The notes beneath the pieces are model-generated. The model did not search any database and was not told where the DNA came from. It worked only from the letters and a program-made list of their open reading frames with translations. The position numbers and the translations under genes were made by a program. From contig NZ_JAIWNB010000005.1 of assembly GCF_020215705.1 (NCBI RefSeq), positions 186,001 through 250,000 of the forward strand: 64,000 nucleotides of DNA, given 5' to 3'. Positions 37,128 through 40,752 of this stretch are shown one piece after another. Origin of the DNA: Nonomuraea aurantiaca (GTDB lineage Bacteria; Actinomycetota; Actinomycetes; Streptosporangiales; Streptosporangiaceae). Numbering within the stretch: the first letter of the stretch is position 1; each line of letters begins with the position of its first letter.

Positions 37128-38456
37128 TTACGGAGAGAGCCGATGCAGGTCGCGGGGGAACAACGTGGCCTGGCGGATGTTCGCCGCGCCGACCAGGCGC
37201 GCGGTCCAGCGCTCGAGCCCCAGCGCGAACCCCCCGTGCGGCGGCATGCCGTGCGCGAACGCCTGCAGATACCCCTCATACGGCCCGACGTCCTCACCAC
37301 GCGCGGCAAGGGCGTCGAGATAGTCCTGATGCCTGTGCAGCCGCTGCCCGCCCGTCACCAGCTCCACCCCCCGGAAAAGCAGGTCGAACCCGTTCGAGTA
37401 CCCCTCACGTAGCGGGTCCGGGTGGGTGTAGAACGGCCGCTTGGCCATCGGATACCCCGTGACGAACAGGAACTCCGACCCGTGCTCCCGCACCGCCCAC
37501 TCCGACAGCCACCGCTCCTGGTCCGGTGACAGGTCAGGCTCGAACTCGTTCGTGAGCCGCTGCGCCTCGGTGAAGTGGATCGCCGGGATCTCGGCGGGCA
37601 CCTCCGGCAGCGTCACGTCGAGCAGGTCGACCGCGGGCTGCCCCCGTACCGCCTCCACCATGCCCGCCACCGCCTCGCGCAGCACCGCCATCACGTCGCG
37701 GTGGTCGCGCACGAAGCCCAGTTCGGCGTCCAGGCTGGTGTACTGGGCCAGGTGGCGGACCGTGTCGTGCGGCTCGGCCCGGAAGACCGGCCCCACCTCG
37801 TAGACCCGCTCGAACACACCGACCATCGCCTGCTTGTAGAACTGCGGCGACTGCGCCAGGTAGGCGGGGCGGCCGAAGTAGTCGATGCCGAAGACGTTCG
37901 CGCCCGATTCGGTGGCCGAGGCGACGATCTTGGGCGTGTGGATCTCGGTGAACCCCAGCCGGTCCAGCGCCCGCCGGAACCCGGCCACGCTCGCCGCCGA
38001 GATCTCCAGCGGCGCCCTGAGGCGCGGATGGCGCAGCGCGACCGGCGCGTGGTCGAGGATCGTGGGCAGGGCCGCGGCCACGACCGGCCGGTAGAGGTCG
38101 AACGGCGGCGCCTCGGTGGGCTCGGCCAGCACCTCGATCTCCGGCTCGGTGAGCTCGGCACCGCCCGGCGCCTGCGGGTTCGCGGTCACGACACCCGTCA
38201 CCCGGACGACCGTCTCCTCACCCGGAACCACGCCGGGCTCCGCACCTGGGACCGCGCAGGGCTCCGCACCTGGGACCGCGCAGGGCTCCGCACCCGGGGC
38301 CACGCCGGGCGCCACCACCTGGGCGAGCCCACTGCGGTCCCTGACGACCAGGAAGGTTACGGATTTCAGCCGCCGGCGGCGATGTACCCAACCGGCGATC
38401 GTCACTCGTTGTCCGGCGTGCTCAGCGAGCTCCGCCGACAGGACACGAGAGATCAT
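37128..38456 (-). CDS. aspS2: Archaeal-type aspartyl-tRNA synthetase (second, AspS2-like copy)
   Basis: This 442-residue class II synthetase is the short archaeal/eukaryotic type, without the bacterial GAD insertion. It has the OB-fold anticodon domain (GWVHRRRRLKSVTFLVVRD), motif 2 around VYEVGPVFRAEPHDT with LDAELGFVRDH, and motif 3 GFALGLERWTARLVG. It attaches Asp to tRNA-Asp, possibly also to tRNA-Asn. A Pro/Ala-rich insertion made of three 24-bp repeats (38236-38307) sits in the OB fold between QVV and EETVVRVTG. The ATG at 38456 has GAGGAG five bases before it. Bacterial-type aspS is not seen in the window but is expected elsewhere, so this looks like an accessory, regulated copy. Confidence 0.9.
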   Translation of the reverse strand: MISRVLSAELAEHAGQRVTIAGWVHRRRRLKSVTFLVVRDRSGLAQVVAPGVAPGAEPCAVPGAEPCAVPGAEPGVVPGEETVVRVTGVVTANPQAPGGAELTEPEIEVLAEPTEAPPFDLYRPVVAAALPTILDHAPVALRHPRLRAPLEISAASVAGFRRALDRLGFTEIHTPKIVASATESGANVFGIDYFGRPAYLAQSPQFYKQAMVGVFERVYEVGPVFRAEPHDTVRHLAQYTSLDAELGFVRDHRDVMAVLREAVAGMVEAVRGQPAVDLLDVTLPEVPAEIPAIHFTEAQRLTNEFEPDLSPDQERWLSEWAVREHGSEFLFVTGYPMAKRPFYTHPDPLREGYSNGFDLLFRGVELVTGGQRLHRHQDYLDALAARGEDVGPYEGYLQAFAHGMPPHGGFALGLERWTARLVGAANIRQATLFPRDLHRLSP

Positions 38457-38489
38457 CACAGCTCCTCACGAGTTGCATGATCCCTTGGG

Positions 38490-38706
38490 AGTGCGGGGGA
38501 GAAGGGAACTCCCGGTGCCACCGCACTTTCGCCGCCCACGCAGGGGCGGCCTCCAAGACCCGATGACGGGGGTCAGACCGGCGGGGCATTTCCTCCCCGC
38601 ACTCGGGAGTGTCTTCACCGAAGGGGCGCGAGACCGCCTTCACAGCTGCCGGCGGCTCTCTGGACCCACGCGGGCCTTCGGTTACTCGTCTCCGTCTGCG
38701 CGTTGC
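38490..38706 (-). promoter_or_regulatory. T-box riboswitch, probably tRNA-Asp sensing, translational
   Basis: Read on the minus strand, the leader has the T-box landmarks in order: GACGAGTAAC at the base of Stem I (38681-38690), AGAGAGCCGCC (AG bulge) and GCTGTGA (38640-38646) for the distal loops, GAAGACACTCCCGAG with GAC as likely Asp specifier (38611-38613), and an antiterminator-like element. That element has helix AGTGCGG/CCGCACT, the 7-base bulge TGGCACC, and helix GGGAG/CTCCC (38490-38527). The bulge TGGC would pair with a tRNA end GCCA, fitting the discriminator G of tRNA-Asp or tRNA-Asn. CTTCTC (38499-38504) can instead pair with the GAGGAG ribosome binding site (38462-38467), pointing to control of translation. 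Confidence 0.87.
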
Positions 38707-38711
38707 CGGTG

Positions 38712-38741
38712 ATCGTAGCCAGCGTCGGCGGACGTCGGCAA
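38712..38741 (-). promoter_or_regulatory. Promoter of the T-box / aspS2 transcript
   Basis: TTGCCG and TACGAT with an 18-base spacer on the minus strand resemble a vegetative sigma promoter. Transcription would start about 5-7 bases before the first T-box element. From here to 38895 there is only the upstream region of the divergent orphan gene, with nothing else recognised. Confidence 0.65.
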
Positions 38742-38895: not shown

Positions 38896-39498
38896 ATGAC
38901 CACACCCGCCCTCAACGACCTCCAGCCCGGCCGTCTCGTCTACATCCCCGCCGGCGCCTCCCCACAGCGCGCCCGCCCCCTCGCCATGTGCCTCCACGAC
39001 GCCGGCCCCAGCTGGTACCCGCCCGGCGAGATCTGGCTGGCCGGACAGGTCCTCCGCGCGGACGGCTCCAACCCTCTCCAGTACCGCACCACCGCGATCA
39101 ACGCCACTCTCGCCAAGATCACCATCGCCCCGCCCGGCATCCGCCACTGCGTCGCCACCGGCTGCCCCAGCTCGTACGTCATCATCGCCATGAACGAGAC
39201 CGGAGAACTGGAGCCCGGCTGGCGCATGCTCCAGACAGGCGACCTCAGCGGCATCAACCTCTGCCCGCAGCACGCCCTCACCGTCACCCCAGACGGCGCC
39301 ACCTTCCTCCACGCACCCGAAGCCATGGACCGCGATACCGGCAACATCACCTGCACCTGTGGAACCCTCATCCGCCCCGTCATGGGGCGCGAGACCACCC
39401 CGGCCATCCGAGCCGCCTGCGTACTCGCCTACGGCGCCCACATCGCCGCCATGACCCCACGGAGACCCTCACGACCACTGCAGCACAGGACCCTCTGA
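38896..39498 (+). CDS. Orphan protein with several Cys, function unknown
   Basis: This 200-residue protein is not recognised. It begins MTTPALNDLQPGRLVYIPAG; a CAGGA/GGAAG stretch lies upstream. It has no signal peptide or membrane helix. Cys and His residues cluster in HCVATGC, LCPQHAL and ITCTCGTL in the second half, a pattern that could bind a metal. Codon choice differs from its neighbours, with a marked preference for C-ending codons and fewer G-ending ones, which hints at a recent transfer. It is divergent from the T-box-controlled synthetase and converges on a pentapeptide-repeat gene, sharing its terminator. Confidence 0.65.
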   Translation: MTTPALNDLQPGRLVYIPAGASPQRARPLAMCLHDAGPSWYPPGEIWLAGQVLRADGSNPLQYRTTAINATLAKITIAPPGIRHCVATGCPSSYVIIAMNETGELEPGWRMLQTGDLSGINLCPQHALTVTPDGATFLHAPEAMDRDTGNITCTCGTLIRPVMGRETTPAIRAACVLAYGAHIAAMTPRRPSRPLQHRTL

Positions 39499-39582
39499 CC
39501 AGAACCACGACGGCTGACAGCTGGCTCGCCTCGCCTCGTCGGATCTGGGGCAGGAGATATCTCACTGCGGTGCCTCAGATTG

Positions 39583-39614
39583 AATGAGACGGATCAATGG
39601 CGATCTGTCTCATT
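39583..39614. terminator. Terminator between orphan and pentapeptide-repeat genes
   Basis: A 13-bp stem (AATGAGACGGATC with GATCTGTCTCATT, one G-T pair) and six-base loop lies between convergent genes, two bases from the stop of the minus-strand gene. Confidence 0.75.
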
Positions 39615-39616
39615 GA

Positions 39617-40084
39617 TCATGAGGCTTGTCGAGGGACGTCTGCGGCCACCCGCCACACCCGTGGCTCGATCTCCCGCGATCGAGCCCGCATCGTCTCCGC
39701 CAGCCCTTCAGGCCACTGCGTCCCTTCCGGGCCCATCGACCACGTGACCCCGTCCAGGCTCGTACCATCCAGGTCCGCGCAGGCCAGATTCGTTCCGCGC
39801 AGGGACGCGCCCGCCAGGTTCGCACGAGTCAGATACGCGCGGCCCAGGTTCGCGTGATCCAGGTTCGCGTCGCGGAGGTCCGCCTCGGTCAGGTTCGCGT
39901 CGTTCAAGTTCGCGCCGACCAGGTTCATGCCGCGCATCTTGCCGCGGTACAGGTCCTCGCCCCGGTCCAGGTCGTAAAGGTCGTCTTCCCAGTCCACCTC
40001 TTCCATGAACCGACGGTAGACCGACCCGCCCATCTGCCACACCATTCCGCCCGATCCGGGCATCCGTCGGAAAGGATCAGTCAC
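39617..40084 (-). CDS. Pentapeptide-repeat protein
   Basis: This 155-residue protein contains about 13 successive A(N/D/S)LxX pentapeptides from roughly residue 50 to 112 (GANLNDANLTEADLRDANLD is a sample), which fold into a right-handed square beta-helix. The N-terminal 45 residues are acidic (EEVDWEDDLYDLDRGEDLY) and the C-terminal 40 are not repetitive. Known members include DNA-mimic proteins that protect gyrase (Qnr, MfpA), but most have no known role and this one is short. No signal peptide is present. Confidence 0.85.
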   Translation of the reverse strand: MTDPFRRMPGSGGMVWQMGGSVYRRFMEEVDWEDDLYDLDRGEDLYRGKMRGMNLVGANLNDANLTEADLRDANLDHANLGRAYLTRANLAGASLRGTNLACADLDGTSLDGVTWSMGPEGTQWPEGLAETMRARSREIEPRVWRVAADVPRQAS

Positions 40085-40255
40085 GCCTCAACGCTCTGCT
40101 TTACCTCCTCGCAGAGGCGTAGCGGCTCATGGCCGTGGTGCAGCCGGCATTCGCGGCTTCGCGTGATCTGCACGGGCACGCGCACTCCGTACCCGCCGGA
40201 GGAGACCCAAGGCGTCCGACGACCACAGGGGGCGGATAGGGGTTATCCGGCTACC

Positions 40256-40281
40256 GGTTGCCCATCACACTCGGGGCAACC
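40256..40281 (+). other. Leader hairpin before the DUF6220-like gene
   Basis: An 8-bp stem (GGTTGCCC with GGGCAACC, loop of 10) ends 9 bases before the GAGGAGG ribosome binding site of the next gene. It may affect translation. The rest of 40085-40302 shows nothing recognised. Confidence 0.3.
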
Positions 40282-40302
40282 TGTCCCCCTGAGGAGGCCG
40301 AC

Positions 40303-40752
40303 ATGCGTAGAGCCCTGGTCGGATGCGCCGTCGCGCAGATCGTCGTGGTGATCCTGCAGTTCTACCTGGCCACGTTCGGCGCGTTCCAGATGCCGCGGCC
40401 CACGGGCACGGATCCCGCGGCGATCGGCCTGCACGCCGCCAACGGCCTGTTCGTCATCCCGGCCGTCTCCCTCGTGGCCACCGTCGTCGCGGCGCTGGCG
40501 AAGGTGCCCGGCAGGCTGATCGCGCTGTGCGCCGCTCCCCTGGTGCTCAGCGCGGTCCAGATGCTCGTCGTCTTCCCGCTGGCCGGCCTCGCGGGCGCCA
40601 CGAAGAACGACACACCGCTGGCCAGCCTGTTCGTGTACGGTCTGCACGCCGTCGTGGGGCTGGGCCAGCTCTGGGCGGTGATCGCCGCCTACCGTGCCGT
40701 ACGCAGGCACACCAAGGCACCCGTGGAAGAACCCCAGCCCCAGCCGGTCTGA
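40303..40752 (+). CDS. Four-helix membrane protein (DUF6220-like)
   Basis: This 149-residue integral membrane protein has four hydrophobic helices (for example AQIVVVILQFYLATF and LFVYGLHAVVGLGQLWAVIA) and a conserved HAANG between helices 1 and 2, a pattern typical of the DUF6220 family. The ATG at 40303 follows a perfect GAGGAGG. The C-terminus is Pro/Glu-rich (EEPQPQPV). Function unknown. A 15-bp tandem repeat begins 25 bases beyond the stop. Confidence 0.75.
   Translation: MRRALVGCAVAQIVVVILQFYLATFGAFQMPRPTGTDPAAIGLHAANGLFVIPAVSLVATVVAALAKVPGRLIALCAAPLVLSAVQMLVVFPLAGLAGATKNDTPLASLFVYGLHAVVGLGQLWAVIAAYRAVRRHTKAPVEEPQPQPV

Follow-up and report, generated by a model that had tools for sequence, protein, structure and literature searches.

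Why should an actinomycete that already has a bacterial aspartyl-tRNA synthetase (AspRS) keep a second one of a different type, and when would it make it? The question is raised by aspS2 of Nonomuraea aurantiaca (genome size 11.8 Mb), which lies with its leader on the minus strand of the 64,000-nucleotide stretch of DNA analysed here (the window). On the grounds of sequence comparison it is very probable that a tRNA-Asp-responsive T-box riboswitch controls the translation of this spare AspRS; the binding of the tRNA, the direction of the switch and the conditions of its use are what we infer from the same comparisons.

The archaeal-type AspRS and its T-box leader

The product of aspS2 (AspRS2) scored 523.5 bits against the NF003483 profile (cut-off 353), which marks it as archaeal-type, and it contains the class II motifs QSPQ, VFRAE and GGFALGLER. 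The same genome also encodes a bacterial AspRS (AspRS1, 596 aa), and the two enzymes are thus of different types, as a preliminary description of the sequence had held. Among solved structures, the nondiscriminating AspRS-2 from Thermus thermophilus (1N9W) comes closest to AspRS2, and the NCBIfam name of the NF003483 match is “aspartate--tRNA(Asn) ligase”. At the positions of W26 and K85 in the T. kodakarensis enzyme, which we take to be determinants of tRNA-Asn tolerance (H plus P being the nondiscriminating combination), AspRS2 has H and P like T. thermophilus AspRS-2, and by these two signature residues it is predicted to be of the nondiscriminating type. The main T-box-linked clade has H in 47 of 48 and P in 48 of 48 enzymes, and archaeal-type enzymes from genomes without a bacterial AspRS have E/D and K at these positions. 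AspRS1 contains the motifs RRRDHGG and RPEGNENP, which are presumably nondiscriminating residues as well. GatB is present in the genome and AsnRS is absent, because a search for synthetases of the AspRS class returned both AspRS and LysRS and no further member.

In Nonomuraea aspS2 is located next to cmk and der, a core neighbourhood. In N. aurantiaca the der-aspS2 spacing of many other Nonomuraea is interrupted by an insertion (38896-40752) that holds genes for a pentapeptide-repeat protein and a DUF6220 protein along with small genes that match no family. Within aspS2, a 24-base tandem repeat in four copies (38214-38310, minus strand) lengthens a loop of the anticodon-binding domain by about 24 residues (PGAEPCAV...); the closest Nonomuraea relatives (L073, L085) give a match that is about 24 codons shorter.

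Scanned with the Rfam covariance model RF00230, as the preliminary description had suggested, the leader, within the 250 bases before aspS2, matched end to end (model positions 1-219; 73.7 bits, E = 2.1e-15). This score is below the gathering score of 93 bits, which is why the leader is missed by a default Rfam scan (at the gathering threshold nothing was reported in the window), and the T-box claim is carried by the comparative evidence and not by the score. The K-turn, S-turn, AG bulge and distal loop were all found in Stem I (Table 1), elements that are missing from ultrashort relatives. Two T-boxes were found in the genome of N. aurantiaca, the aspS2 leader and one before ileS. Folding of the single leader by RNAfold was uninformative (in the minimum free energy structure Stem II is wrongly paired to the antisequestrator; z = -1.5), and a match to RF01527 (CrfA) on the opposite strand (E = 0.78) was attributed to chance.

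Table 1. Coordinates of aspS2 and of the elements of its leader in the window.
Feature	Position	Strand	Basis
aspS2, archaeal-type AspRS, 442 aa	37128..38456	-	ATG 38456-38454; NF003483, PF00152 + PF01336
GGAGCUGUG, Shine-Dalgarno region, 3' strand of predicted sequestrator	38457..38465	-	
AAGGG, 3' partner of loop helix and part of predicted sequestrator	38482..38486	-	covariation
CGCACUCC, 5' strand of predicted sequestrator (A1 3' strand + linker)	38488..38495	-	permutation test
T-box leader	38490..38707	-	RF00230 match
Antisequestrator, A1 GUGCGG/CCGCAC + A2 GGGAG/CUCCC	38491..38526	-	pairs kept, compensatory swaps
CCCUU, A2 apical loop, pairs with AAGGG downstream	38502..38506	-	core pairs 53/53
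T-box bulge UGGCACC	38520-38514	-	flanked by helices A1, A2
Stem III	38531..38550	-	covarying helix
Stem IIA/B region, GACCC / GGGUC	38557..38574	-	paired in nearly all leaders
Stem II, GCGGGG / CCCCGC	38581..38600	-	paired in 51-53/53 leaders
Stem I, long canonical	38601..38702	-	RF00230 alignment; covariation in 53 leaders
Specifier GAC (Asp)	38611..38613	-	specifier position of RF00230 alignment
Stem I: K-turn stem; S-turn AGUA with GAA	S-turn 38686-38683 with 38616-38614	-	RF00230 alignment
Stem I: AGAGAG bulge; distal loop	38661-38656; 38650-38639	-	RF00230 alignment

Conservation of the leader and identity of the tRNA

The preliminary description had also suggested a comparison with the leaders of aspS2 orthologues. 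A T-box leader was found before 79 of the 80 related aspS2 genes (80 genomes) from at least six families: Nonomuraea and other Streptosporangiaceae, Streptomycetaceae, Catenulisporaceae, Pseudonocardiaceae, Nocardiaceae (Rhodococcus rhodnii) and Micromonosporaceae (Catellatospora). Two of the 79 (L083, L084) have an ultrashort form of the leader; since the Rfam model misses such leaders, motif and pairing checks were used as well. This conservation excludes a chance match, and the T-box with a bulge between two helices that had been recognised from the sequence is borne out. When 53 leaders were aligned, RNAalifold predicted 47 pairs, of which 23 are maintained despite changes on both sides; every pair of A1 and A2 is conserved in 50-53 of the 53 leaders, with swaps of C-G and G-C (33/20), A-U and G-C (37/12) and U-A and C-G.

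The specifier GAC is invariant in the leaders with a long Stem I and is present in the ultrashort hairpins of several lineages too, e.g., GAGG-CCUGACACC-CCUC (L158) and GGAG-CAUGACAAC-CUCC (L163). The protein tree requires three or more switches between a long and an ultrashort Stem I, so GAC outlasted repeated remodelling. The frame rule of TBDB puts GAC in the “+0” frame (PMC7778990). Since the specifier loop falls one base short of the Rfam consensus (the gap is before GAC), the neighbouring frames were checked. In this genome G73 is found in tRNA-Asp, -Asn, -Gln, -Trp, -Ser and -Arg(UCU), U73 in tRNA-Thr, and A73 in tRNA-Lys and -Glu. The UGGC of the bulge is complementary to G73 of tRNA-Asp, and given this bulge and these discriminator bases, only Asp (GAC) and Arg (AGA) fit among the overlapping frames; Thr (U73) and Lys (A73) do not. 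A neighbouring frame (AGA for Arg or ACA for Thr) might instead specify another tRNA, e.g., in cross-regulation, as the short specifier loop and the G73 of tRNA-Arg(UCU) would allow; however, ACA or ACC would need tRNA-Thr, which has U73, most ultrashort leaders have lost the AGA frame but keep GAC, and the gene under control encodes an AspRS. We regard such a reading as highly improbable, and the preliminary assignment of GAC and tRNA-Asp is upheld as the predicted specificity.

Two deviations were seen among the leaders. The base after GAC is C rather than the usual conserved purine in many of them (GAAGACC; among L042-L082), and UGGU replaces UGGC in Catenulispora and some Streptomycetaceae, giving a wobble pair with the discriminator.

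A predicted switch at the Shine-Dalgarno region

No intrinsic terminator (a hairpin followed by a U-run) was found in the window (0 sites), so control is likely to be translational. The pairing first proposed for masking the ribosome binding site, CUUCUC with GAGGAG, did not hold up: its key positions are paired in 28-36 of about 50 leaders (about 55-70%), its cognate energies are no better than permuted ones (4800 of 5000 permutations were as low), and another pairing fits better. The distance between GAGGAG (38467-38462) and the ATG is five bases, not the six given before.

The alternative sequestrator, first suggested by folding the 3' part of the leader, joins the 3' strand of A1 and the linker, CGCACUCCC(AAGGG), with the Shine-Dalgarno region GGAG-C-UGUG. 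Among 38 diverse leaders the cognate pairing energy was -14.3 vs. -12.2 kcal/mol for permuted partners, and none of 5000 permutations was as good; relatedness of the leaders inflates this test, and we read the result as strong support rather than proof. The two strands are matched within lineages, e.g., ACCUCCAGG:CCUGGAGGU (L158), CACCUCC:GGAGGUG (L049) and GCACUCCC:GGGAGUGC (L068), and the predicted pairing is weak in some others (L046, L047, L067, L072). The strand CGCAC is common to helix A1 and the sequestrator and cannot sit in both simultaneously, as is expected of a switch; the predicted sequestrator would cover the Shine-Dalgarno site and be incompatible with the antisequestrator.

A further helix between the apical loop of A2 and the tail of the leader, CCCUU:AAGGG, can pair in each of the 53 leaders, five of which have G-C in place of U-A, and has variants elsewhere (CCCAAA:UUUGGG, CCCG:CGGG and GCCC:GGGC); 65 of 5000 permutations among the 38 leaders were as good, in a test that relatedness likewise inflates. 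Because AAGGG is also part of the sequestrator, the loop helix, if formed together with A1 and A2, would act as a pseudoknot that locks the ON state; alternatively, it could be a hairpin of the OFF state. Our literature search found no description of such a loop-tail helix, which is possibly a new feature of T-boxes.

The following course of events is proposed. When tRNA-Asp is mostly uncharged, its anticodon GUC would pair with GAC of Stem I and its free GCCA end with UGGC of the bulge, by which the antisequestrator would be held; CGCAC would then be locked in A1, the apical CCCUU may hold AAGGG, and the Shine-Dalgarno site would thereby be free for AspRS2 to be made. When tRNA-Asp is charged, the antisequestrator would not be stabilised, CGCACUCCC(AAGGG) would pair with the GGAG-CUGUG region, and initiation would be blocked. 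The antisequestrator looks very stable on its own, and these energies do not account for the OFF state winning.

The T-box might instead act on transcription, by attenuation or Rho-dependent termination, since its long canonical Stem I resembles that of transcriptional T-boxes; but a terminator-like hairpin with a U-run is missing and a covarying pairing masks the Shine-Dalgarno region, and we hold this to be quite unlikely. Translational control, as the preliminary description had it, is the type predicted from the terminator search and the conserved alternative pairing.

Role of the spare enzyme

An NF003483-type enzyme above the cut-off, the type to which our sampling of spare enzymes refers, was found in 36 of 395 Actinomycetes genomes. 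A bacterial AspRS is also present in 22 of the 36, and a T-box antisequestrator is located upstream in all 22; in the other 14, all from one family and thus representing few independent events, the archaeal-type enzyme is the only AspRS and none has the T-box. G168, from the same family as these 14, has both enzymes and the T-box. Sampling of the family of N. aurantiaca (81 genomes) added 18 genomes with aspS2 (split into pieces in G471), all with a bacterial AspRS and 16 with the T-box; the only exceptions, G421 and G467 (L224, L225; one genus), have a second-type archaeal AspRS beside the bacterial one. Overall, the T-box is present in 38 of 40 genomes with both enzymes vs. 0 of 14 with the archaeal-type enzyme alone. 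The single T-box-less gene among the 80 relatives (L055) sits within the T-box clade on the protein tree, and no bacterial AspRS above the cut-off was found in its metagenome bin (15 of 15 other genomes tested have one); the housekeeping gene may have disappeared first and the switch afterwards, or the bin may be incomplete. All 16 further T-boxes sampled in the family of N. aurantiaca lie before ileS-like genes.

A distant second clade of AspRS (Q/N and K/S at the two signature positions; GWVxxLRLQ) is found behind a very similar leader in G182, G449, G415 and G460 (L235, L228, L229, L230), as though one switch had been given a different enzyme. In G007 (L226), one of the 22 genomes with both enzymes and the T-box, aspS2 looks split, with an anticodon-domain piece at about 303-500 and the catalytic part at about 3700, some 3.2 kb apart.

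As the leader is predicted to read uncharged tRNA-Asp, the spare AspRS of Nonomuraea and many other soil actinobacteria is probably made only when this tRNA is uncharged, and AspRS2 would back up the bacterial AspRS1 when the latter is limiting, inhibited or short of substrate. Outside Nonomuraea, no neighbour gene is common to the aspS2 loci compared; the conserved unit is leader plus synthetase, which speaks for an enzyme of general emergency use rather than one that serves a single biosynthetic pathway.

As a special case of the spare-enzyme reading, AspRS2 might be insensitive to poisons of AspRS (aspartyl-adenylate mimics etc.) and be induced through the T-box upon inhibition of AspRS1, as insurance against drugs or for self-resistance. 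In favour of this, the spare differs in type from the housekeeping AspRS in all cases sampled (NF003483-type); two distant archaeal-type clades are found behind one T-box, where extra copies of AspRS1 would suffice for dosage; auxiliary resistant synthetases are known in Streptomyces (reviewed in PMC9437257), and many antibiotic-making genera are among the carriers. Against it, there is no linkage to a biosynthetic cluster, with a stable cmk-der location in Nonomuraea and no common neighbour elsewhere, and we find the idea possible but doubtful. The stress or self-resistance logic suggested earlier, with microcin C as an example, is consistent with these data and gains nothing beyond that from the gene neighbourhood. 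AspRS2 could also be a nondiscriminating enzyme that supplies Asp-tRNA-Asn for conversion to Asn-tRNA-Asn by GatCAB, as in Deinococcus and Thermus, to which the H26/P85 residues of 47-48 of 48 T-box-clade enzymes, the presence of GatB without AsnRS and the NCBIfam name would be suited. Yet the specifier is always GAC and never AAC, 359 of the 395 genomes do without an NF003483 enzyme above the cut-off, and type-2 enzymes with Q/N and K/S occur behind the same T-box. AspRS1 itself has the presumed nondiscriminating residues and, with GatB present and AsnRS absent, charging of tRNA-Asp is the likelier job; the supply of Asn-tRNA seems an unlikely one. Tentatively, and with little confidence, the spare-enzyme reading can be extended to a mobile insurance cassette: an Asp-sensing translational T-box that spread through Actinomycetes with interchangeable, mutually distant archaeal-type AspRSs, kept only alongside the cell's own AspRS, in which a new type of switch disarms the sequestrator by a pseudoknot of apical loop and downstream element, and in which the spare would be insensitive to poisons of the housekeeping AspRS.

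The thrZ gene of B. subtilis encodes a silent, T-box-controlled spare ThrRS, a paralogue of thrS, under antitermination control. The two share the principle of a reserve synthetase that uncharged tRNA turns on; thrZ differs in being a paralogue of the housekeeping gene and in its antitermination. In S. coelicolor an auxiliary TrpRS is under attenuation control. Like AspRS2 it is an accessory synthetase in an actinomycete; it is induced, and it is demonstrably resistant (to indolmycin; cited in PMC9437257). The translational ileS T-boxes of Actinobacteria (M. tuberculosis, N. farcinica; PMC1262725, PMC7583486) resemble the aspS2 leader in the UGGN antisequestrator, Shine-Dalgarno sequestration, an ultrashort Stem I in some lineages and occurrence in the same genomes, whereas the aspS2 leader has Asp instead of Ile specificity, precedes an accessory enzyme, mostly has a long canonical Stem I and has the predicted loop-to-tail helix. 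Firmicute synthetase T-boxes, including that of one of the three aspS genes of C. acetobutylicum (PMC2494555), have the same Stem I elements (K-turn, S-turn, AG bulge, distal loop) and likewise control one of several paralogues, but the aspS2 leader is from another phylum, lacks a terminator and serves an archaeal-type AspRS. T. thermophilus AspRS-2 agrees with AspRS2 in the H plus P signature and in being a second AspRS beside a bacterial one, although T. thermophilus, unlike N. aurantiaca, also has AsnRS, its second AspRS serving Asn formation (PMC4206432).

GAC T-boxes and a Clostridium aspS T-box are already known, and the aspS2 leader is a further member of the T-box family. In the accessible literature only ileS T-boxes are reported from Actinobacteria, and no report was found (mostly open literature) that joins a T-box to the extra AspRS of Actinomycetales, although such leaders may already stand in TBDB without comment. 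A survey of 2014 recorded a second AspRS in some Actinomycetales and gave no reason for it in these bacteria (PMC4206432). The present results offer a testable one: all spares in the class-wide sample, and 38 of 40 overall, stand behind a tRNA-Asp sensor, and archaeal-type copies that are the sole AspRS have lost the T-box or never had it. They add a second synthetase gene to ileS among those with a T-box in Actinobacteria and provide a single regulator whose Stem I exists in a long and an ultrashort form, which is useful for the study of T-box evolution. They also mark AspRS as a likely target of the inhibitors or stresses that soil actinobacteria face.
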